In this document: piece after piece, positions 5,792 through 17,578 of the stretch | Position numbering within the stretch: the first letter of the stretch is position 1 | Layout: every line of letters starts with the position of its first letter | Assembly: GCA_021163295.1 (NCBI GenBank) | Contig: JAGGXD010000192.1 | Location: 1-41,137 of the forward strand | DNA length: 41,137 nucleotides | From: Bacteroidales bacterium | Lineage (GTDB): Bacteria > Bacteroidota > Bacteroidia > Bacteroidales > VadinHA17 | Reading direction: 5' to 3' | Position numbers and translations under genes: made by a program | The notes under the pieces: model-generated | Seen by the model: the letters and a program-made list of their open reading frames with translations, nothing else | What the model was told of the DNA's origin: nothing | Database searches by the model: none

Positions 5792-6481
5792 ATGGCAAAA
5801 AGCAAAAAGTCTCAGGCACCTGACAGATTAGAAGAAGTTGAAAGCGCATTGAGCCGTACTGAAAGATACATTGAAGATAATCAAAAACCCCTGACAATTA
5901 TTATCCTGGCTTTAGTCGTGGTTGTTATTGTTTTTATGGGATATAAACGGTTCATTGTAATACCTGCTGAGAAAGAAGCACAGTCGCAAATGTTCATGGC
6001 CGAGAGATACTTCGAGCAGGACTCATTTAACCTGGCTCTTTATGGCGATGGCAATAACCTTGGGATGCTCGATATTATTGACGATTATGGCGTTACTAAA
6101 TCATCTGAACTAGCTCATTACTATGCCGGTATTTCATTTCTTCACCTCGGTGAATTTGAACTGGCAATTGAACAATTAGAAAAATTCAGTTCAAATGACA
6201 AAATGATAAACCTGATTGCAAAAGGAGCTATTGGCGATGCTTATCTTGAACTTGGCGAACCGTCAAAAGCTATTACTTATTACGAGAAAGCTGCTACTAC
6301 TGAAGATAATGTATTTGTAAACCCAATTTATCTTTTGAAAGCCGGTCAGGTTTATGAATCACAGGAAGAATTTCAAAAAGCATTGGAAACCTACCAAAAA
6401 ATAAAAGATAATTACCCTGAAAGCCAGGAAGGCCAAAAGATTGAAAAATATATTGCCAAAGCTAAGTTGATGGTAAATTAA
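5792..6481 (+). CDS. membrane-anchored tetratricopeptide repeat protein
   Basis: The product has 229 residues. A hydrophilic N-terminus of about 33 residues is followed by one membrane helix at about 34-56 (LTIIILALVVVVIVFMG), then a soluble domain outside the cytoplasm. The soluble part contains at least three TPR-like units, for example AHYYAGISFLHLGEFELAIE, GDAYLELGEPSKAITYYEKA and KAGQVYESQEEFQKALETY. The arrangement resembles YfgM-type anchored TPR proteins, but partners cannot be deduced. The ATG at 5792 follows a good promoter and gives a lysine-rich start. It is divergent from recF, a common Bacteroidota order. Its last 20 bases overlap the 3' end of the convergent epimerase gene. Confidence 0.88.
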   Translation: MAKSKKSQAPDRLEEVESALSRTERYIEDNQKPLTIIILALVVVVIVFMGYKRFIVIPAEKEAQSQMFMAERYFEQDSFNLALYGDGNNLGMLDIIDDYGVTKSSELAHYYAGISFLHLGEFELAIEQLEKFSSNDKMINLIAKGAIGDAYLELGEPSKAITYYEKAATTEDNVFVNPIYLLKAGQVYESQEEFQKALETYQKIKDNYPESQEGQKIEKYIAKAKLMVN

Positions 6482-7607
6482 TTCCTATACCTGGAGCTTC
6501 GGGCATAATCCAGTGTCCATCGCGAAATTCAGCACCTTTGTACGGATCGTTACTTAGGAGCAGTGGGCCATCAAGATCGAGCCATCTTGCGAGAGGCTGG
6601 AGTTGAACAGCTGCACTAATAGCCACTGATGATTCGATCATACATCCAATCATTATGTCCAGATTAAAAGCCCTGGCAAGAACTGCAATACGAAAGGCTT
6701 CAAGTATTCCACCGGATTTCATCAGTTTTATATTAACACCATCGTATGCTTCAGCAATTGCTGGTATGTCTTTCGATGTATTTATTGCTTCATCGGCAAC
6801 AATTGGCACAGGCGCCCTCTCTTTCAGCCATTTGGCTTCCTTTATTTTATCCACAGGCATTGGTTGTTCAATAAGTTCCACACCTTGTTTTGCCAACCAT
6901 TCAATTTTCCTTATGGCTTCTTCCTTATTAGTCCACCCCTCATTTATATCAACCCGTATCGGTTTGTCTGAAACCAGGCGAATAGTTGAAATTATTTCCT
7001 TATCGTTCCTGTTTGTTAATTTCACTTTCAATATTCTATACGGATCAGCTTCCTTAACTTTCTGCTTAATTACTTCAGGCTTGTCAAATCCTATTGAGAA
7101 AGAGGTATTCACGAACTTATTCGGATCAAGACCAAAAAACCTGTGAACAGGAATATTAAGTTTCTTGCCGAGCCAGTCAAAAAGTGCAATATCAAGTGCA
7201 GCTTTTGCCGGTGATATATTTTCAATCTTTGCATTAACCTTATCCGTCAATTCATAAAATTCAAAAGGGTTTGAGTCGACATAAACTGGTATAATTTTCT
7301 TCAGTTCAGATATTGTTCTTTCAGCATTCTGTCCGGCGCCTGTCATATGCGACGCCTCTCCTATTCCCGTTATCCCGTCTTTTTCGTAAAAAACAAATAC
7401 ATCTTCTTTATAATCAGTACTACCACGACTAATAGTCCATGTATGACCCAGTTCAAGTTTTATTTTTTTATAGGTAATTGATGCTTTTGTACTATTACTT
7501 TTTTCTGTTTTGTTCACCTCTCCGGATAATAATCTGTTCCCCGGAAAGACTAGTGATGAACCTGCTAAACCGGTTAAAGCGAGGAATTTTTTTCTACTTA
7601 TTTTCAT
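6462..7607 (-). CDS. exported dipeptide epimerase (L-Ala-D/L-Glu type, enolase superfamily)
   Basis: The product has 381 residues. The ATG at 7607 is chosen over an upstream in-frame start because it begins a signal-like segment MKISRKKFLALTGLAGSSLV. The S-R-K-K-F-L element resembles a Tat motif with one Arg replaced by Lys. The mature part is a muconate-lactonizing-type enolase superfamily enzyme: KVK at 194-196, metal ligands Asp220, Glu247 and Asp272, Lys294 in NIKLMKSGG, and a DLDG motif near 344 seen in Ala-Glu epimerases. The expected reaction is epimerisation of dipeptides such as L-Ala-D-Glu from peptidoglycan recycling. The exact substrate is not certain. Export would place it in the periplasm, unlike the cytoplasmic E. 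coli YcjG. Confidence 0.88.
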   Translation of the reverse strand: MKISRKKFLALTGLAGSSLVFPGNRLLSGEVNKTEKSNSTKASITYKKIKLELGHTWTISRGSTDYKEDVFVFYEKDGITGIGEASHMTGAGQNAERTISELKKIIPVYVDSNPFEFYELTDKVNAKIENISPAKAALDIALFDWLGKKLNIPVHRFFGLDPNKFVNTSFSIGFDKPEVIKQKVKEADPYRILKVKLTNRNDKEIISTIRLVSDKPIRVDINEGWTNKEEAIRKIEWLAKQGVELIEQPMPVDKIKEAKWLKERAPVPIVADEAINTSKDIPAIAEAYDGVNIKLMKSGGILEAFRIAVLARAFNLDIMIGCMIESSVAISAAVQLQPLARWLDLDGPLLLSNDPYKGAEFRDGHWIMPEAPGIGINLPST

Positions 7608-7718
7608 CCGTTCAATTTTTATAAAACGTAAAAATACAAAAAACAAATAACTACTAAGTGTTTGAAAAATGTTGATAACAATATGGTACTTAAAATGTTT
7701 TTTAACATGCGATGTTTG

Positions 7719-7726
7719 TAATTTTG
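7719..7726 (+). promoter_or_regulatory. possible -7 box before the giant gene
   Basis: TAATTTTG fits the TAnnTTTG consensus and lies 34 bases before the ATG at 7761. No good -33 TTTG is seen at the right distance, so this is weak. Confidence 0.3.
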
Positions 7727-7760
7727 ACAGAATTTGATTTTTTCAAAAAATATTTTAATT

Positions 7761-10700
7761 ATGCAAATATCCGGAGAACCAAAAACTACGCTCAATCAGG
7801 AAGCCAGAAATTTTGTTGACTTATATACTCAACTTGATGAAAGAGCAGAAAATTTTCTCCCTGACCGGGTTTTTGAAAGCCTTTCCAATTTTGTAAGGTT
7901 ATGTTATGAAGAACCCGATGACCCTGCAAAACAGCAAGCAGAAATACGAAAATATTTGCTTGAACTAAAGGAAGCTATCCCCGGTTACATAGATGTTTCC
8001 CTAATGTTGATGCCTCATGAGAACTCAAAAGCATTTGAGTACAGTTCAAGGAGGAAGGTATTTCATGATATGCTAAATGAGCTTATTGATACCGAGCAGG
8101 TTGATGATAAAACTAAAATACAGTTCAAAAATATTCTTAAAACCCATGATTATTCGTTGGGCACACCTCCTGTTACAAAAATAACTATCGACTCCCTTTA
8201 CAGGATATTGTTGGGTGACAAAGTAAGGGAACTCCGCAAATTTCGTGATCTTATTGGAGTAAGTGGGGATATCGAAGAAGCACAATGGAATTATATGCTT
8301 GATGTAATGGATCAAATGATTAACCAGTCAACCCATTATACAACAAACGCAGAAAAGGAGAATTTTCTTTCCCGTACCGAATCTACCGTGAATTTCAAAG
8401 GACTTAACGGATTTATAAGAACTATTGTTTCAGGAACTGCCGAAACAGCTATTGATCTGCTTACAAAAGAAGTATTCAGCAAAAACAGTGTAAGAGTAAT
8501 CGAATTTTCAACAGAAGAAAATCTTTACAAACAGATATATGAAGAGAGCACAAGTATTTTCGCTGTCAGGATAAGGAATATGAGAAAAAACCCATTCAAC
8601 TCCTTCAGGTGGTTTCCTTTACTAACCAGAATGGTATTTATTGATGATTCCCCTGAGTCCCGGTCAACTAATACATCCCTGATCTTTTGTCTGCATAATG
8701 GCATAATAAATACTCTTAATAAGGTTCATACAAAGAAACTGGGAGCCATGGCTAACAGCCAGTTGAATCTTCGTCTGATTCATGATAAGGTTAACTCGCG
8801 GAATCTTAAATATTTCAGGCAAAAGATTGATGAAAAAATTATTGAATATGATAAAGAATTAAGGCAACTGAAAAAAGAACAGCTCGCTAATCCTGAAAAC
8901 CCTGATCAGGATAATATTCTTTATAAATTCGATGAATTTGCCCGGCAGGTAATTAAGGATAAGTACATACTTTCAAAATTCGGAGCATACATCAACCTGG
9001 CAGAAAACACAAGGGATCCTGAAAATATTAAAATAATTAATCGGGAGTTGATAAAGGAATTTGAGGAAAGAACCCTGGCCTATTTTTATTCCGAGAATAA
9101 AAGCCTGCATATTGCAACAGTTGTTGAAGGTGGCGGTCGTAACCAGATAAGGACATACGGAGAATATTTACTCAAGCGTCCTCTAAAACCTGTACAGAAT
9201 TCAATAATACACAGGTGCAAAACCATTCTGGATGTCGTCCCTGATAATTACCAGAGAACAATCCATAACCATTTTCATAATAATTTCGGAATAAATCTTT
9301 TTCTTGAAAAATACAAAGAATACCTCACAAAAGTTGAAAATAGTTCAGATAATCAGGGAAGGTTCAGAAACCTGCTGATCGATTTTGGTATTGAAGACAA
9401 ATACAACAAAAAAGGATTGGCAGATAAGGATATCATTAAAGAGTTTATCAGTAATCTGGGGAATCTGGAAAAAACATCGATTTCAGATGATGTACAAATG
9501 ATTATCAGGGATCTGTTATTTTACAAGAACCGAACACCAAACCCATTTATTTTCTTTAACCAGGAGGCAGCCTGGGAGTATAAAGATCTTTTTCCACCCG
9601 ACCGTTTTGATCTTAATCCATTTGATATTGAGATCGAACTTAATGAGGAGGGTCATGTTGACTGGGAGCGACTGCTTACAAAACTTGAACGAATAAAAAG
9701 CACTTTTCAGTTATTCGATGAAACAGGGAATTTATGGGACCGGTTCTGTGAAAATTCAACCCTCATTATTAACGATCCGTCCAACCCATCAGGATTCACC
9801 GATTTTAATAATACTAACCTGATAAAATTCCTTAAGTTTCTTAATAACAGTAAACTTACTTTGTTTTTAGATGAAGCATATAACGATGCGGTAAAAATAG
9901 AGGATCCCGAAGAGCCGAAATGGCGCACTATTTCAAGATATATAATGAACAATATCGGTTCATTTGCCAGAATTAGTGTCGTATCGTCTTTATCGACAAC
10001 AAAAAACCTCGGGGCAACCGGTGATCGTCTCGGTTCTCTTCTGGCAACACCGGTCAGAAAAGATGTGATTGATTATGCCAGGAAACGATTTGGAGTTGAA
10101 AAAGGAAACACAAACTCATTGTTCATCCTTGTTAATATACTGGAAACAGCTCAGCTGGCAAAGAAAATAAAAGACAGAATGGATGAAAGTCTTCCAAAAG
10201 ATGCTTCCAGGTATAAAATAAAAGAGAAACTGAAAAAATATATTATGACAGAGATACGTGTCAACATTAATATCCGTGAAAACGGAAATAGTACCCATAC
10301 ACGTAATCCGTCATTATTTGAAGGAAGTCCGCTACACCTTTTTCTTCTGGAAGAACTTGTATCTCTTGATAAGCTTGATGTTCTGGAATTGCCGGATGAT
10401 TTCAAATATAAAGGAATTCTATTCTTTAGCTATTATAAAGCTCATTTGGTAAGTGAACTTAATAATTTCAGGATAAATAAGATATTCAGACGGGAAGCTA
10501 ATAAAAGACTGGAGCTGGCAAAGAACAAAGCGTTAGTAGTTTTAAAAGAAAGTGAGCAAAACAAAATTAGTGTACTGGATTCGGATGGATCATACCTTTT
10601 TAATCTTCATCTGAAAGATTTTTTCTCATACCAGGATTTAGAGAAATTCACAAAAAAACTTGCAGACCAGCGCGGAATTGCACTTATACCCTATCAAACA

Positions 10701-13700
10701 GGATTTCTGCGTTTCTCACTTGGTGATTATATTGAAGGCTCTGCAGAAAGCTACGATAATTTTATTGATGAATTTGAAAACGCACTGCGTATGTTCCTGA
10801 AATACTGGAATATATTCCATAAAGCTAAGAATGATCCTTCAAATAAAGATAAACAGACAGATGATATTTTAATTGATATTTTCAAAGTTCGTAGTGACAG
10901 TGAACTGATTAAAAATATTCTTGAAGATTTTAATGTTATCCGTGATCTAAATAAGGACATTAATAATTCGCTAAAAATCAGCGACATAAAAACACTTTAT
11001 CATGCTTTTCCAAAAGAATGCGGGGTTTCAATCAATTCAATTGGTGATTCAAATAATGCTGTGTTGGAATTTTATGAAAATGTAGGGAAATGCAGAAATC
11101 TAACTGAATTTATCTCATCCAAAGCATTTACAAAAGTATATGAAAACCTTCTGCCTCAGATTTACCGTAATATTCCACAGCTTAAAAAACTTGACATCAA
11201 TACGGTAATTGCCAAATATGGAAAAACAACCATACTTAAGCACATAAAAAGTAAGCTGGAATTCCAACCGGACAGGTATATACTTGATAACCCGGAAGAA
11301 CTAACTATTATGCAGGAAATCCTGATTGAACTGGAAAGGATTCTGTTCTCTGATGCAAAAACAAAAATACTCTCAATTAAAGCGAACGAAAATGATATTT
11401 CAGGTGACCTGGCTAAACTTGAAGGTTATAACAGAATACTTAAGAAATACATAGAAGAATTATTACTGCATTTTAATCTTCCTTTTGAACTGCATTCGGT
11501 TGAACCGACATTTGAACAGCTTGCAGATACAGTTGCTTTAAGATTTAATGAAATTACCGGATTATCTGTAAACGACATTAATCCGGATATTTTCACCAAC
11601 AGGTATTTCGAAAAGATAGATAAGAAGCTGGATGATCAAAAGCGGGATGATATGATGAGAAAATACCCCGGAGTTATTCAGCAAACAATCCGTAAAAAGC
11701 TTTATCACTCGAACCTCACATCAACAAACAGGATATTGTTCATTTACCTGCTTCAGAAAAATAACCAGTTTGAAAACCGGCTGATTGAGAGAATAAACCG
11801 GTTTACGAGCCATTATGATATTACAGAGCAGGAAGATATCAGACTGACCAGAGAAGACCTGATATCACAACTTATTCCTGCAGAAATAAAAACATTACTG
11901 GATGAGATATCTACACAAAGAAATGTAAAGATCTTACCGGAACAACTGCATGATGAAGTAAGGGAGATGGCTCTGTTTTTTATCAGTCTTGTAAACATGA
12001 CTAAAAACAATGAATATTACAAGAAATATAACCACATACTAATCAAACTGGTTGAAACAGAATTTCTGGAACAAAATTCAAACATAAATGAAATGGTGCA
12101 GCATGGAATTGTGCTTCATAAAAATTTTACTGTACATAATAACACACTTGAAAAATGGAATAAAGGATCGTTATTATGGATAGCACAATTAATGTCGCGT
12201 TGTGGAGTAATTGCCTGGGAACAGCCGGTGCAAACACATACAAGGATAGCAACTGATGCTAAAAAACGGGAATATCCCTATCATAAAATAGACAGGTCAG
12301 ACGATCCGTCAATCAACAATACAGGTTCTCAAAATCCTGACCGAAATGAATTCATAAAAAAAATGCAAGTCAGACCTTTGTCCTCATTTTTTGCAAAACG
12401 ACTCGCCCTGTTTGCCCATAACCTTGACGAAGAGGATTACCGGTGCAAAATTGTAAATACCGGTTTGGTGAAGGAACTCCATATTATTCAAAAATCTTTT
12501 CTGAAATATCTGACAGATAATTACCGGTTGATAGGTCCAGGATTTATTAAACTGGATGAGGTTCAGGAATTTATTCCTGACGTAATCCTCCTTCTCGGAG
12601 CTCCTGAAAAAGTAATATCATTCCCTCAAATTGGTTATTTCGATCTGAAAGGTCCAAACGGGAATATAAAAACCATCGTTACACCTTTGAAAAAATCTGT
12701 TGACTACTTTGGGAACATTAAGAAACCCAGACTAACCATGGTTAATGAGAAAGTAAAGGAGCTGGGCGGTATACCAGTTCATGGCTCTTTGTTTGCAGTG
12801 GAAGAAGATGATGGCAGTATTTTTGTTATCCAGATAAGCGGTGACAGCGGGGTTGGTAAATCAGAAATGCTGGCTGCTATGATGCTTAAGTGGATGAAGA
12901 AGGATCTTCCTGGCATCCGTTCAATTAAAATGATTGCCGGGGATATGTTTCACCTGTTTCCCGATGAAGAGGGTAACCTGTACGGAATAGGTACAGAAAT
13001 GGGTGATTTCTCACGTGTTACAGATTTTGATCCGGATTTTATTAAAAATTACAATTCCCTATTCAAAAGCAGTGCAGACAGTAATGTACATGACCTTAAC
13101 TCAAGAAGCACTATCAGTGGTTTATGTGATATTAATATGCCTTTTAAAATTGACATCATGCTAACTGCTTACAATTTTGCCAGGGAAGAAGCAGGAGTGA
13201 AACGATATGCCAACCCGGAAAACTTTTTTCTTTATCGTGATTCACATGGAGAGAGGAAAGAAAAAGCAACCAGTTCTGATAATCCCCATATTCTGCGAAC
13301 TTTACTTCGCTATTCAGGTGACAGGAATATTGTTGAAGTAATTGACCGGTATGGCAACCATCTTGATGATATCCTGTCATGGGAGAAAGATGAATTTACG
13401 GGAGTGCATTACCTGTCATCCTCATACAAAATGATGGATAAGATTGACATTGAAGATACTGTCAACAAAATATTTATTAATAAATCCTTTTTCAGGAAAA
13501 ACAAGAAGTTTATTGTTATTAAAGTCAGGTTTGATATAATTAAAAACCGGTTTATTGCTGATGCAAAATGCGATGAGGATAAGAATAATATTTCATCCCC
13601 AATTGACCGTGATTTTTTTGGTACATTATTTAACACCCTTGCCAGCACACCTTCCGGAAATCCTTTTATTGCAGAACCTGGTGAAAGCAAGATAAAAAAA

Positions 13701-14429
13701 CATTTAATAGAGATATTAAAAGGAAGACCTGATGGTACAGGAAAAGGCAAAAAAATTCAGTTAGGTATACTGTCAACCGATCTTGGCAGGAAAGGGAAAG
13801 AAATTACCGGACCGCAAAAAGCAGCTGAAGATGTAAAGATCCTGATACGCGAAGTACGAATTATGAACCCTGACCTTGACAAAAAGAAAAATCATGTTAA
13901 GAAATTAATAATTGAGCGCTATAAGCCCCTTTTCAGGCATCATAAACATAACTTGGAAATATGGCGATACAACTTTTATTTGTACCAGCTTGAAGAAATG
14001 AGAAAAGCCCGGCTGGTAAGAGTGGATGATATGAAAACTAAAATAGATATGTCAGGATTAGCAGGTTTCTATCCTTTACCCAGGAACCATAAATTCAGCC
14101 CGTTGCTAATAACACCCAATATCAATATTGAGCTAAACGGATTTAGTGAGACTTACGAACAGTTAATGTGGTTACCTAATATCCGGGAATTTGCAGATCA
14201 GTTTTATAATGACTGCAGCACAGTGTATATTGCCAATAGCTACAATAGGGACACAGTCATCAACAACATAGTTATACAGCTTCTCTTAATGAACGGGTAT
14301 ATTGCTATTGAAGATCTGACCCGTGGTAAAATAACTGAAAAGGCTAACAGGGAAACAATTGCTGCAGCAAAATTTGCAGCCGTTAAGAAGCTAAAGGAAA
14401 TCGAACAAAAAAAGACCGGCAGAAAGTAA
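7761..14429 (+). CDS. giant protein with PLP aminotransferase-like and HPr-kinase/PEPCK-like P-loop domains
   Basis: The product has 2,222 residues from the ATG at 7761; a TTG nine codons upstream is less likely. There is no signal peptide or clear membrane helix, so it is probably cytoplasmic. Residues about 500-990 look like a fold-type I PLP enzyme. NDPSNPSG (671-678) holds the expected Asn674, DEAY (704-707) holds Asp704 and Tyr707, and SLSTTKNLGATGDRLGS holds Lys748 and Arg756, eight apart as Lys258 and Arg266 are in aspartate aminotransferase. GFLRFSLG gives a candidate carboxylate-binding Arg984. Residues about 1000-1600 are largely helical and unrecognised. Residues about 1640-1900 resemble HPr kinase: VHGSLFAV (His1674), then GDSGVGKSE (Lys1700), then an IAGDMFHLFPDEEG segment. 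The N-terminal 480 residues and the C-terminal 300 are unrecognised. It stands alone, between a divergent epimerase gene and a convergent ridA. Substrate and role are unknown. Confidence 0.9.
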   Translation: MQISGEPKTTLNQEARNFVDLYTQLDERAENFLPDRVFESLSNFVRLCYEEPDDPAKQQAEIRKYLLELKEAIPGYIDVSLMLMPHENSKAFEYSSRRKVFHDMLNELIDTEQVDDKTKIQFKNILKTHDYSLGTPPVTKITIDSLYRILLGDKVRELRKFRDLIGVSGDIEEAQWNYMLDVMDQMINQSTHYTTNAEKENFLSRTESTVNFKGLNGFIRTIVSGTAETAIDLLTKEVFSKNSVRVIEFSTEENLYKQIYEESTSIFAVRIRNMRKNPFNSFRWFPLLTRMVFIDDSPESRSTNTSLIFCLHNGIINTLNKVHTKKLGAMANSQLNLRLIHDKVNSRNLKYFRQKIDEKIIEYDKELRQLKKEQLANPENPDQDNILYKFDEFARQVIKDKYILSKFGAYINLAENTRDPENIKIINRELIKEFEERTLAYFYSENKSLHIATVVEGGGRNQIRTYGEYLLKRPLKPVQNSIIHRCKTILDVVPDNYQRTIHNHFHNNFGINLFLEKYKEYLTKVENSSDNQGRFRNLLIDFGIEDKYNKKGLADKDIIKEFISNLGNLEKTSISDDVQMIIRDLLFYKNRTPNPFIFFNQEAAWEYKDLFPPDRFDLNPFDIEIELNEEGHVDWERLLTKLERIKSTFQLFDETGNLWDRFCENSTLIINDPSNPSGFTDFNNTNLIKFLKFLNNSKLTLFLDEAYNDAVKIEDPEEPKWRTISRYIMNNIGSFARISVVSSLSTTKNLGATGDRLGSLLATPVRKDVIDYARKRFGVEKGNTNSLFILVNILETAQLAKKIKDRMDESLPKDASRYKIKEKLKKYIMTEIRVNINIRENGNSTHTRNPSLFEGSPLHLFLLEELVSLDKLDVLELPDDFKYKGILFFSYYKAHLVSELNNFRINKIFRREANKRLELAKNKALVVLKESEQNKISVLDSDGSYLFNLHLKDFFSYQDLEKFTKKLADQRGIALIPYQTGFLRFSLGDYIEGSAESYDNFIDEFENALRMFLKYWNIFHKAKNDPSNKDKQTDDILIDIFKVRSDSELIKNILEDFNVIRDLNKDINNSLKISDIKTLYHAFPKECGVSINSIGDSNNAVLEFYENVGKCRNLTEFISSKAFTKVYENLLPQIYRNIPQLKKLDINTVIAKYGKTTILKHIKSKLEFQPDRYILDNPEELTIMQEILIELERILFSDAKTKILSIKANENDISGDLAKLEGYNRILKKYIEELLLHFNLPFELHSVEPTFEQLADTVALRFNEITGLSVNDINPDIFTNRYFEKIDKKLDDQKRDDMMRKYPGVIQQTIRKKLYHSNLTSTNRILFIYLLQKNNQFENRLIERINRFTSHYDITEQEDIRLTREDLISQLIPAEIKTLLDEISTQRNVKILPEQLHDEVREMALFFISLVNMTKNNEYYKKYNHILIKLVETEFLEQNSNINEMVQHGIVLHKNFTVHNNTLEKWNKGSLLWIAQLMSRCGVIAWEQPVQTHTRIATDAKKREYPYHKIDRSDDPSINNTGSQNPDRNEFIKKMQVRPLSSFFAKRLALFAHNLDEEDYRCKIVNTGLVKELHIIQKSFLKYLTDNYRLIGPGFIKLDEVQEFIPDVILLLGAPEKVISFPQIGYFDLKGPNGNIKTIVTPLKKSVDYFGNIKKPRLTMVNEKVKELGGIPVHGSLFAVEEDDGSIFVIQISGDSGVGKSEMLAAMMLKWMKKDLPGIRSIKMIAGDMFHLFPDEEGNLYGIGTEMGDFSRVTDFDPDFIKNYNSLFKSSADSNVHDLNSRSTISGLCDINMPFKIDIMLTAYNFAREEAGVKRYANPENFFLYRDSHGERKEKATSSDNPHILRTLLRYSGDRNIVEVIDRYGNHLDDILSWEKDEFTGVHYLSSSYKMMDKIDIEDTVNKIFINKSFFRKNKKFIVIKVRFDIIKNRFIADAKCDEDKNNISSPIDRDFFGTLFNTLASTPSGNPFIAEPGESKIKKHLIEILKGRPDGTGKGKKIQLGILSTDLGRKGKEITGPQKAAEDVKILIREVRIMNPDLDKKKNHVKKLIIERYKPLFRHHKHNLEIWRYNFYLYQLEEMRKARLVRVDDMKTKIDMSGLAGFYPLPRNHKFSPLLITPNINIELNGFSETYEQLMWLPNIREFADQFYNDCSTVYIANSYNRDTVINNIVIQLLLMNGYIAIEDLTRGKITEKANRETIAAAKFAAVKKLKEIEQKKTGRK

Positions 14430-14453: not shown

Positions 14454-14831
14454 CTACCTGGCCGCAATGGCTTCAATCTCAATTTTTACATTCAGGGGTA
14501 ACCTGGCAACCTCAAATGCAGCTCTTGCAGGAGGGTTTTCAGGGAAGAATTTTTCATAAGTCTTGTTCATTTCTGCAAAATCATTCATATCCTGAAGCAT
14601 ACAGGTTGTTTTTATTATCTCTTTCATTGAATACCCGGCAGCATTTACTATAAAACGGATATTCTGTAAAACCTGCTCCGTCTGTGAAGTTATAGTATCA
14701 CCGGCAAGTTTCCCGGTGTCAGGATTAAGTGGTACCTGACCTGAGATATATAATGTGCCTTTTACTTCAACAGCCTGGCTATAAGGACCAATTGTGCCCG
14801 GAGCTTTTTTTGTACTAATTACTTTTCTCAT
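14454..14831 (-). CDS. ridA: RidA family reactive enamine/imine deaminase
   Basis: This 125-residue cytoplasmic protein of the YjgF/YER057c/UK114 family hydrolyses reactive enamine and imine intermediates, such as 2-aminoacrylate released by PLP enzymes. Family marks are present: GPYSQAV at 15-21, LYISGQVPLNPDTG at 27-40, and PARAAFEVARLPL with the substrate-binding Arg103. Length and start are normal. Its 3' end lies 24 bases from the end of the giant PLP-domain gene, in convergent orientation. It precedes lptD on the same strand (128-base gap), the direction in which it could share a transcript. Confidence 0.94.
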   Translation of the reverse strand: MRKVISTKKAPGTIGPYSQAVEVKGTLYISGQVPLNPDTGKLAGDTITSQTEQVLQNIRFIVNAAGYSMKEIIKTTCMLQDMNDFAEMNKTYEKFFPENPPARAAFEVARLPLNVKIEIEAIAAR

Positions 14832-14913
14832 ATAAGAATTACTATAATGGTTAAAAATTATAAAGTTAAAAGGAAGAGTTAGATTTACAAACTTTTAACT
14901 TAACAAACTAATA

Positions 14914-14957
14914 TTTCCTTTATTCCCCCTACTCCCTATACTCCCTCTATTCCCTTT
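14914..14957. repeat. degenerate 9-bp repeat tract (ctattccct family)
   Basis: A pyrimidine-rich stretch on the plus strand with diverged 9-bp units (tattccccc, tactcccta, tactccctc, tattccctt) ends two bases before the lptD stop codon. It is the same family and orientation as the recF tail repeat. Confidence 0.75.
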
Positions 14958-14959
14958 AA

Positions 14960-17578
14960 TTATATATCACGATCGAACCAGCTTTTGCGTTTTTCATATT
15001 TCAAATCGCTCAGGATGGCTGATTTTGCACTTATGGTAAATGAATAACTTTGCCGACTCCCTAATGGGATCCATGAAAGTCTCATCTGCCAGCAGTGAAG
15101 ATCGCGGGAAATATTCACCGATGTATAGGTAAGCTCTTTAATCTTGAAATCCCAACCTGAATTAAACCCTATTTTCCATTTTGAAGTTAGACTGATATTT
15201 CCATTAAAATTTAGAGTTTGAGTAATATTAGGTTCATTGGATCTTGGTTTTGACCAGTTGAAATTATATCTGAATGAAAATCTCCAGGGTACATTAAAAT
15301 CAGCATACCCCAACTCCTCAATAATTTGTTCATCCTGTCCCATTCCTTCAGAACCTAATCCCATTCCTCCACCCTCCGGTCTGATACCGGCAGGTGCACT
15401 TCTTGAAGAAGCTGAACTTCCTCCACCACCTCCGGCTTTTGAACTGAAAGAAGCATTTACAGACATATTTAACCTTGTTACACGAAATAATTTACCGGTT
15501 TGCTTAATCTCAAAAGTATTAATCCTTGTACCATTTTCGGTAATTGCATATGGATCAAAAGCACCACCAAAGCTCAGACTGACTTTTTTGAAAAGTTTGG
15601 TTGATCCCCGGAATATAACAGGAGCAAGATTAAGCGAATCTGCAAACATATTGTAATTGGTTGAGAAATTAAACCTGTCAATTATTTTAACTTTCTGTGC
15701 CTCTTTTGTTGTATCTTTCAGGTTTCTGAGTTTCATCTCAATGTTGTTATTGAGAGAAAAAGAAATTGATCCACTTCTCCCGGGCAATGAAGGTGTGCTG
15801 TATATCTCAGATTCGTATATAGAGTATTCCCGAGTATTACCCGCTGTATCTGTCTGGTATTCACGGTAATAGCTTGGAGTAATTTCGCTCATATCAGGAA
15901 CAAGAGACATAGATATTGCCGGACTCATCACATGACGAATAGCAATAATTTTTGAATCAGGATTCCGTGGTAAAAACATACCATATATCTTAGGTGTAAG
16001 TCCTAATGAAATTGAAGGCACGAATGCATGAGCATAACTAATTTCTTTAATAGTATCGGTAACTATCTGACTATCTTCCCAGCTTCTTTCGATACTACTG
16101 GAATATAAAACGCCCGAATACCTAACCTGCGGCGAGATAGAAAAATTATTAAATGGACGGAAAACCGTACTTAAAGGTATTGAATGCTGGAAACCATTTT
16201 TCATTTCATCAAACATATCTGAAGTCAGAAATTTTTCATCAGTAGTACTTATCCTGTTATCCATCTTAGCCTGGTAGCTTAATTCAATATTTTGATACCA
16301 TTTAGTTTCTCCAACCTGGTTTTTCGGTTTGAACGGATAGATACGGCTCATATTAAAATTTGCACGCGGGAGGTTCAAGCTAACCGTCTTATTTCTACTG
16401 TTCTGGCTATGGTTCATACTGGCAGAAAAATTAAAAGGTGTTCCCTCCCATCTTCTGGAATAAGAGATACTGGATGTTTTTGTATTTGTCAGATAACTGT
16501 TCGAGGTACGTGCATATTTCTGATCAAAGCTGCTGGAAGACATATTGACATTTCCTGAAAAACTGGCACCCGGATTGTTCTTGGGATCCTGAGAGTGTGA
16601 CCATGCAATGGAATAGTCATTTGATGTACGGTAAGTAGAAAGTCCTTTCTCTCCCGACACACTTTTATAATACCTGGCATTTAGATTACCCGTAAACTTA
16701 TACCTTTTTTTATATCTTGAACTTAATCGCAATCCATATGTGCCATTGGTGTAGATATCTCCACGTATAGCAAGGTCGGCATATTCGCTCAATGCAAAAT
16801 AATAACCTCCGCTTCTGAAGAAAAACCCACGATTTTTTTCTTCTCCATAATCAGGAATAAGAACACCTGATGCCCGCCCTTTTTGGTTAGGAAAGAATCC
16901 AAACGGAAGGATTAATGGTAAAGGCAAATCTTCAACAACAAGGTAAGTCGGACCTGAAACAATTTTATCATCAGGAATAATTTTTGCTTTTGTAAGAGCA
17001 ATGTAAAAATGAGGATGTTCAGCATCACATGTCGTATATTTCCCCGATTTTACATGTATTTCACCATTAGCGTGTTTCTTTGTTCGTGTACTATGCAGGT
17101 ATCCACCCTGTTCTTCAGTAACAATTCCCTTAATAATACCTTTTTGTGTCTTGAAATTATATTCAAGTGTATCTGCATCAAATTCTTCAGCTCCATCTTT
17201 AAAATGAGGTCTGCCGGCTATAGTTCCTGTACTATCAGGCCAACCGGTTGCTATAATAATATTATTTTTTGTGTCCAGCACAATATAATCAGCTTCCAAA
17301 ACAATATTTTCATAGTTCACAACTGCCTGACCATATAAATAAACCTTATGGGCTTTTACTTCAAAGCGTAAAGAGTCTTCTGAATTATATTTAATTGGGA
17401 CTTCTATAACATTACGTGTACCTGACTGCGAAGCAGTGCTTGTAGTATCAACCGAAACTGTATCCTGTTGCATCACAGCGTTACCGGATGTTACAGGATT
17501 ATTCTGACTAAAAGACAGACATCCTGAATAAATCCAGATAACAGTAATGAATACAGGTTTTATGTATTTTTTTAACAA
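14960..17578 (-). CDS. lptD: LPS-assembly protein LptD-like outer-membrane protein
   Basis: The product has 872 residues. An N-terminal signal peptide (MLKKYIKPVFITVIWIYSG...) is followed by a Ser/Thr-rich linker and an OstA-like beta-jellyroll domain at roughly 65-210 (AHKVYLYGQAVVNYENIVLEADYI). The large LptD beta-barrel then starts around the segment with VEDLPLPLILPFGFFPNQKGRASG. In the outer membrane, with LptE, LptD inserts lipopolysaccharide or lipooligosaccharide into the outer leaflet. The barrel has many alternating Ser/Tyr/Asn strands and a Gly/Ser-rich loop near residues 710-750. It is divergent from the amidase-MCE pair. A TAGCTTTG box on the minus strand (17654-17661) may drive it, though no -33 box is obvious. 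Confidence 0.88.
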   Translation of the reverse strand: MLKKYIKPVFITVIWIYSGCLSFSQNNPVTSGNAVMQQDTVSVDTTSTASQSGTRNVIEVPIKYNSEDSLRFEVKAHKVYLYGQAVVNYENIVLEADYIVLDTKNNIIIATGWPDSTGTIAGRPHFKDGAEEFDADTLEYNFKTQKGIIKGIVTEEQGGYLHSTRTKKHANGEIHVKSGKYTTCDAEHPHFYIALTKAKIIPDDKIVSGPTYLVVEDLPLPLILPFGFFPNQKGRASGVLIPDYGEEKNRGFFFRSGGYYFALSEYADLAIRGDIYTNGTYGLRLSSRYKKRYKFTGNLNARYYKSVSGEKGLSTYRTSNDYSIAWSHSQDPKNNPGASFSGNVNMSSSSFDQKYARTSNSYLTNTKTSSISYSRRWEGTPFNFSASMNHSQNSRNKTVSLNLPRANFNMSRIYPFKPKNQVGETKWYQNIELSYQAKMDNRISTTDEKFLTSDMFDEMKNGFQHSIPLSTVFRPFNNFSISPQVRYSGVLYSSSIERSWEDSQIVTDTIKEISYAHAFVPSISLGLTPKIYGMFLPRNPDSKIIAIRHVMSPAISMSLVPDMSEITPSYYREYQTDTAGNTREYSIYESEIYSTPSLPGRSGSISFSLNNNIEMKLRNLKDTTKEAQKVKIIDRFNFSTNYNMFADSLNLAPVIFRGSTKLFKKVSLSFGGAFDPYAITENGTRINTFEIKQTGKLFRVTRLNMSVNASFSSKAGGGGGSSASSRSAPAGIRPEGGGMGLGSEGMGQDEQIIEELGYADFNVPWRFSFRYNFNWSKPRSNEPNITQTLNFNGNISLTSKWKIGFNSGWDFKIKELTYTSVNISRDLHCWQMRLSWIPLGSRQSYSFTISAKSAILSDLKYEKRKSWFDRDI

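Follow-up and report, generated by a model that had tools for sequence, protein, structure and literature searches.

Can an aminotransferase and a phosphotransferase be kept together in one very large bacterial protein, and if so, what might the two accomplish jointly? This question is raised by a gene at positions 7761 to 14429 on the forward strand of contig JAGGXD010000192.1 (assembly GCA_021163295.1), which belongs to a Bacteroidales bacterium of the VadinHA17 lineage. The whole stretch analyzed, 41,137 nucleotides, is referred to here as the window, and the 2,222-amino-acid (aa) product as the giant. A first-pass annotation, made from the letters alone, had described it as a pyridoxal 5'-phosphate (PLP) aminotransferase-like domain joined to a domain resembling HPr kinase or phosphoenolpyruvate carboxykinase (PEPCK). 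The presence of a PLP aminotransferase and an HPr-kinase/PEPCK-superfamily domain in a single chain is supported by predicted structures and conservation: both folds were predicted, and all 45 full-length sequences keep the two lysines that the annotation had singled out, K748 and K1700.

The gene is a single uninterrupted reading frame of 2,222 codons plus a stop. A longer version starting at a TTG codon at 7734 is possible; the residue aligned with M1 of the 7761 start is Met in 40/40 rows. Homology searching of genome contigs yielded 49 loci; of 60 genomes searched (the own genome and 59 relatives), 25 gave matches. After duplicates and fragments had been taken out, and with incomplete copies left out of the counts (e.g., L004, L024, L029, L037, L041, L043, L044, L050, and L066), 45 distinct full-length proteins remained, including the window protein, to which the others are 53 to 95% identical across the entire chain. 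The single long protein of the first-pass annotation is thereby confirmed. The ratio of nonsynonymous to synonymous substitution rates (dN/dS) lies between 0.037 and 0.138 in all 28 regional values (seven regions, four pairs; some dS values exceed 1), indicating purifying selection on every region.

The N-terminal half is predicted to be a complete class I aminotransferase fold, broken by an insertion of approximately 350 residues. In the AlphaFold2 (AF2) model and the VIA-align superposition, the first part of the fold covers residues ~75 to 239 (positions 7983 to 8477) and the second part residues 593 to 1022 (9537 to 10826). Pfam Aminotran_1_2 (PF00155) matches residues 628 to 776 well above its cut-off (E value of 2.6e-11; 43.8 bits versus 19.7), and the same family is matched by 40/40 members at an E value of ≤0.01. 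The model of residues 1 to 1060 has a mean predicted local distance difference test score (pLDDT) of 82 and a predicted template modeling score (pTM) of 0.83. The best 50 Foldseek matches listed for it are class I aminotransferase-fold enzymes, including ACC synthase and GntC. Superposition on PDB entry 1x0m gave a Z score of 16.1 and a root mean square deviation (rmsd) of 3.4 over 376 of 403 residues (model residues 75 to 1022), a result tied with many others. Relative to the class I enzymes 1x0m (a Pyrococcus horikoshii KAT II homologue), 1o4s (Thermotoga maritima aspartate aminotransferase), and 2z1y (Thermus thermophilus LysN), the giant has the complete fold and the full set of PLP residues, but it is only 11 to 16% identical to them and carries the helical insertion in mid-fold, all within a 2,222-aa chain.

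The catalytic residues of this half are strictly kept. D704, Y707, K748 (10002 to 10004), R756, and R984 are invariant in 45/45 sequences, as the first-pass annotation had read them, whereas the asparagine that it had placed at 674 is in fact N675 (the motif NDPSNPSG begins at 671), invariant in 40/40 rows; residue 674 is Ser in 25 and Ala in 20 of the 45 sequences. We take K748 to be the Schiff-base lysine, D704 and Y707 the Asp and Tyr of the PLP site, N675 the NPxG asparagine, R756 the PLP-phosphate arginine, and R984 the arginine that holds the substrate carboxylate. S224 and G225 are likewise invariant and probably form the PLP-phosphate loop. The aminotransferase-like assignment thus holds at the level of family profile, predicted fold type I, and residue conservation. 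FapA and PSDC rows returned by Pfam for this half were judged to be chance matches.

The C-terminal half carries, according to its predicted structure and conserved residues, a divergent PEPCK-fold phosphotransferase at residues ~1451 to 2035 (12111 to 13865). The model of residues 1061 to 2222 has a mean pLDDT of 76 and a pTM of 0.66, and the best 50 Foldseek matches listed are all PEPCK (top E value of 4.5e-6; probability of 1.00). VIA-align superposed 373 residues (Z score of 13.5; rmsd of 4.3; model residues 392 to 975, corresponding to 1452 to 2035 of the protein). When a profile of the giants was aligned to 20 genuine PEPCKs of relatives, 51 columns around the KK, H, and P-loop motifs were paired at 37% identity, matching YFGNIKKP...HGS...GDSGVGKS with YGGEIKKS...HCS...GLSGTGKT. 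In this alignment, K1655 (12723 to 12725) is the counterpart of the PEPCK metal-ligand lysine and H1674 (12780 to 12782) that of the metal-ligand histidine. The Walker A motif GDSGVGKS spans residues 1694 to 1701 (12840 to 12863), with seven of eight positions invariant in 45/45 sequences; the exception, V1698, is kept in 41/45. The order of VHGSLF (H1674) and then GDSGVGKSE (K1700) is as first annotated. D1728 (12942 to 12944) pairs with the second Asp of the DD motif in PEPCK, G1727 standing in place of the first, and N1780-S1781-R1782 (13098 to 13106) corresponds to the N-[TS]-R motif, aligned to ENTR; both correspondences were drawn through standalone relatives of this domain. K1655, H1674, D1728, and N1780-S-R1782 show no variation in 40 rows and presumably keep the metal and substrate roles of their PEPCK counterparts. 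The giant has the predicted fold of PEPCK (PF01293/PF00821) and the same order of KK, H, P-loop, Asp, and N-x-R, but it differs in falling below the family cut-offs, in the Gly at the first DD position, and in extra insertions, and its relatives were found solely within giant chains or in a distant family of standalone proteins.

This standalone family comprises proteins of the same order without the aminotransferase half (L071, L072, L074, L077, L131 to L135, L155, and L156), encoded in frames of 577 to 618 aa. Identity over the core is 27 to 32% (profile match of 2e-26 over 344 columns), and the proteins fall below family cut-offs where scanned. A profile of 11 of them (576 to 587 aa, trimmed to the first Met) aligned with PEPCK over 421 columns at a probability of 87%, with the DD and N-x-R motifs included. 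The family occurs in 7/344 genomes of the order (in two copies in three of them) and giants in 19/344, with both together in none; since approximately 0.4 co-occurrences would be expected by chance, nothing is inferred from this separation. No neighboring gene with an evident link was seen by eye around the standalone genes.

Among the 25 genomes matched in the search of 60, 20 carry giants or large pieces thereof, three (G013, G035, and G054) only standalone relatives, one (G052) a short C-terminal piece, and one (G015) a decayed copy. An N-half profile matched 17/295 genomes of the order, the own genome included, always within frames of 2,150 to 2,320 aa; a split form of this half was not seen in these 295. 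In a phylum sample, a C-half profile matched 2/296 genomes, again including the own one. Nearly all of the 45 proteins are labeled Bacteroidota; the few labeled otherwise, e.g., KSB1 (L046), come from metagenome bins with unchecked labels. A quick tree gave support of at least 95 on 36 of 42 inner branches and grouped the Marinilabiliaceae records together, with a program warning of long branches, among them L039, L046, and L065. The plasmid and phage collections gave no match, and an origin from either was rejected. The decayed copy (L086, G015 contig C7, 7616 to 9997) lies at a contig end, with an internal deletion that joins ~1217 to ~1726 and a TGA inside; beside it stand a short-repeat array and frames resembling CRISPR-associated genes, named by eye.

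What can safely be stated is that a predicted, intact-looking aminotransferase and a predicted PEPCK-fold phosphotransferase are kept as one chain. Beyond this, the reading we prefer, with a probability of roughly 0.35, is that the giant works as a bifunctional enzyme in which a 2-oxo acid, in the simplest case oxaloacetate, is common to both active sites. The N-terminal transaminase would make or use the 2-oxo acid (aspartate + 2-oxoglutarate <-> oxaloacetate + glutamate), and the PEPCK-like site would decarboxylate and phosphorylate it, or form it in reverse (oxaloacetate + ATP <-> PEP + CO2 + ADP, PEP being phosphoenolpyruvate), while the helical regions may tether the two sites to each other or control them. 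The narrower version, in which aspartate and PEP are interconverted within one polypeptide and oxaloacetate passes internally between the PLP site and the PEPCK-like site, seems unlikely in its full form. Oxaloacetate is proposed because of what both families do and because a separate gene pair in the same clade brings together the same two families. Support for coupling is indirect, coming from the N-half matches that all lie in giant frames and from this pair.

The pair consists of an ordinary ATP-PEPCK gene and, immediately upstream of it and in the same orientation, an aminotransferase gene; it is present in 10 genomes, the own one included (G000, G001, G003, G004, G006, G008, G009, G010, G015, and G019). 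It encodes the same two enzyme families as the giant, but as two ordinary, unfused enzymes. The aminotransferase frame has 405 codons (334 in G006, where it is cut by the contig start), and the other nine copies are 74 to 96% identical to the own one. In three copies scanned, the best NCBIfam row was aspartate aminotransferase, below cut-off, and 16 of the 20 best PDB matches listed for the own copy are named aspartate aminotransferases. On G000 contig C131 (L157:1976-4876) and in nine relatives (L161 to L169), the arrangement looks like a two-gene operon of the clade. In 20 more regions upstream of PEPCK, taken from 19 genomes, the only trace of such an aminotransferase was an apparent remnant in G005 (L171, G005:C51, ~7532 to 8185), where the beginning of the operon aminotransferase runs into the end of a PEPCK frame. 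Within the family of the window's organism, the giant is present in nine of the ten pair genomes and a decayed copy in the tenth, and the pair occurs in 0/6 family genomes that have PEPCK and lack the giant (G007, G011, G012, G014, G016, and G020); in G002, the contig begins at the PEPCK gene and the upstream region is not visible. As the pair genomes are closely related, the co-occurrence of giant and pair does not amount to an independent correlation.

Several observations weigh against this reading of the giant. The pair is absent from giant-bearing G017, G018, and, outside the family, G045, and is a mere remnant in G005; moreover, the ten pair genomes are close relatives that were fetched since the adjacency had shown in two listings. 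No special kinship was seen between the aminotransferase of the giant and that of the operon; a search of the own genome's aminotransferases with the giants' profile gave one very weak match only and is uninformative on kinship. The own genome already holds two ATP-PEPCK genes, and oxaloacetate is a candidate substrate by virtue of family roles. The PEPCK family cut-off was not reached: PEPCK_ATP was matched by 7/22 members (best E value of 0.025), and PF01293 was unreported for the window protein. Profile alignment of the giants with PEPCK reached a probability of only 57%, and hhalign in global mode, unlike local mode, gave no useful alignment (probability of 0.1). The DD motif lacks its first Asp (AGDMFH, with Gly there), which two standalone relatives in the alignment keep. 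For the substrate arginine near the N-terminal domain (Arg65 in Escherichia coli PEPCK), the counterpart is uncertain: a T-R-I-A-T-D-A-K-K-R stretch aligns near TGRSPKDK in an unsure register. Sequence profiles even score HPr kinase slightly above PEPCK: Hpr_kinase_C is matched by 5/22 members with a best E value of 3.6e-4, against the 0.025 of PEPCK_ATP, and among PDB sequences, the HPr kinase rows (0.15 to 0.16) precede the PEPCK rows (0.44 to 1.2), all of them near chance.

The HPr-kinase side of the first-pass annotation was nevertheless abandoned. The giant shares with HPr kinase/phosphorylase (PF07475) a like P-loop, GDSGVGKSE, and an upstream HG motif, but the Hpr_kinase_C scores stayed below cut-off and the family was unreported for the window protein. 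HPr (PF00381) was not found in the own genome (0/1 genome, 96.6% complete; controls positive in 7/14), and the listed fold matches and the motifs flanking the P-loop are those of PEPCK. The HPr kinase fold does not appear among the best 50 fold matches listed; these are filled by PEPCK, so this absence alone is no evidence. NACHT and nSTAND3 rows returned by Pfam for the P-loop were judged to reflect chance or generic P-loop similarity.

The giant gene stands alone: even the commonest neighbor clusters recur in only 6/53 loci, many of which have short flanks, and an operon context was dismissed. Its neighbors, read by eye, are presumably ordinary housekeeping genes. Of the alternatives, the first, possible though rather doubtful, is a PLP enzyme that modifies amino acids and whose PEPCK-like domain is a small-molecule kinase, e.g., of an amino acid or hydroxy acid, with the PLP site then decarboxylating, cyclizing, or transaminating the phosphorylated product. 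PEPCK-superfamily folds do include true kinases such as HPr kinase, certain CobD proteins act as threonine kinases as well, and the best, weak NCBIfam matches of the giant's aminotransferase are GntC, tyrosine aminotransferase, and CobD. The E values (6e-5 for GntC and 3.5e-4 for CobD, improving to 2.6e-6 and 3.1e-5, respectively, with a 438-aa piece) fit this idea, but at ~20 to 27 bits, these matches lie far under cut-offs of 290 to 475; the CobD threonine-phosphate decarboxylase model TIGR01140 reached 19.8 bits (23.2 for the piece) against a cut-off of 290.55. No conserved gene cluster surrounds the giant. The CobD profile search found something in 35/35 genomes and nothing above cut-off and thus does not discriminate. 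A role in the aminopropanol branch of B12 synthesis is disfavored, as a search for CobS was negative in the own genome and positive in only 2 of 14 giant-bearing genomes.

Two further proposals appear unlikely. The giant could be a regulatory protein, with the aminotransferase fold as a sensor of an amino acid or of the PLP state and the PEPCK/HPr-kinase-like domain as a protein kinase acting on a partner. The HPr-kinase-like surroundings of the P-loop, the solitary gene, and the very large conserved helical regions, which could be interaction surfaces, would suit this role, whereas a pure sensor has no need of an entirely invariant PLP catalytic set, HPr was not found in the own genome, and no conserved neighbor could be its partner. 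It is similarly improbable that one domain has lost its catalytic activity and acts as a structural scaffold or allosteric module: the loss of the first DD Asp and the sub-threshold PEPCK similarity would agree with this, but metal and phosphate residues remain invariant across sequences of 53 to 95% identity, and both domains have low dN/dS values. With two genuine PEPCKs in the genome, the idea that the giant replaces a missing one is rejected.

Altogether, ~1,000 residues are without an assigned fold: residues 1 to 74, the insertion (353 residues), residues 1061 to 1450 (390), and residues 2036 to 2222 (187). The first-pass annotation had found no recognizable domain in more than half of the protein; fold prediction reduces this share to roughly 45%. 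The mostly helical insertion, residues ~240 to 592 (8478 to 9536; boundaries placed from strand and secondary-structure order), is strongly conserved, with invariant EGGGRxQ and HFHxNFG motifs, although residues 497 to 513 have a pLDDT of <50; no relative of it was found in Pfam or among PDB sequences. The middle region, residues 1061 to 1450 (10941 to 12110), is also mostly helical in the model, is least conserved at 1251 to 1400, and gave no known relative. The C-terminal region, residues 2036 to 2222, occupies positions 13866 to 14426. When PDB sequences were searched, the insertion and the middle region gave chance-level rows only, as did the C-half. The fold-match lists are taken up by entries for the two known domains and so barely probe the remaining parts.

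The genes flanking the giant in the window are on the reverse strand. An enolase-superfamily gene (6462 to 7646) is divergent from it, with MR/MLE domains above the Pfam cut-off and best NCBIfam rows, below cut-off, from amino-acid racemase/epimerase models. Converging on the giant, at 14454 to 17578, are a gene for a RidA-family enamine/imine deaminase and one of the LptD family, both ordinary by family.

The architecture of the giant is new and its parts are known; it is real and conserved. The first-pass annotation had known of no characterized enzyme that couples the two activities, and no characterized aminotransferase-PEPCK fusion was found in the literature searched, which left most subscription papers outside; the text of PMC9138534 contains neither 'aminotransferase' nor 'pyridoxal'. 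Two textbook catalytic folds are surrounded by mostly well-conserved residues without an assigned fold. The giant is present in records of the named isolates Anaerophaga thermohalophila, Thermophagus xiamenensis, Marinilabilia rubra, and Geofilum rhodophaeum and is therefore directly testable. If the two sites cooperate, the giant would be a natural fusion that connects the nitrogen of amino acids with the PEP-oxaloacetate node and would offer studies of substrate channeling a large new example. Should internal oxaloacetate transfer prove true, these bacteria would possess a self-contained machine that joins amino-acid nitrogen to gluconeogenesis or, run in reverse, to CO2 fixation.

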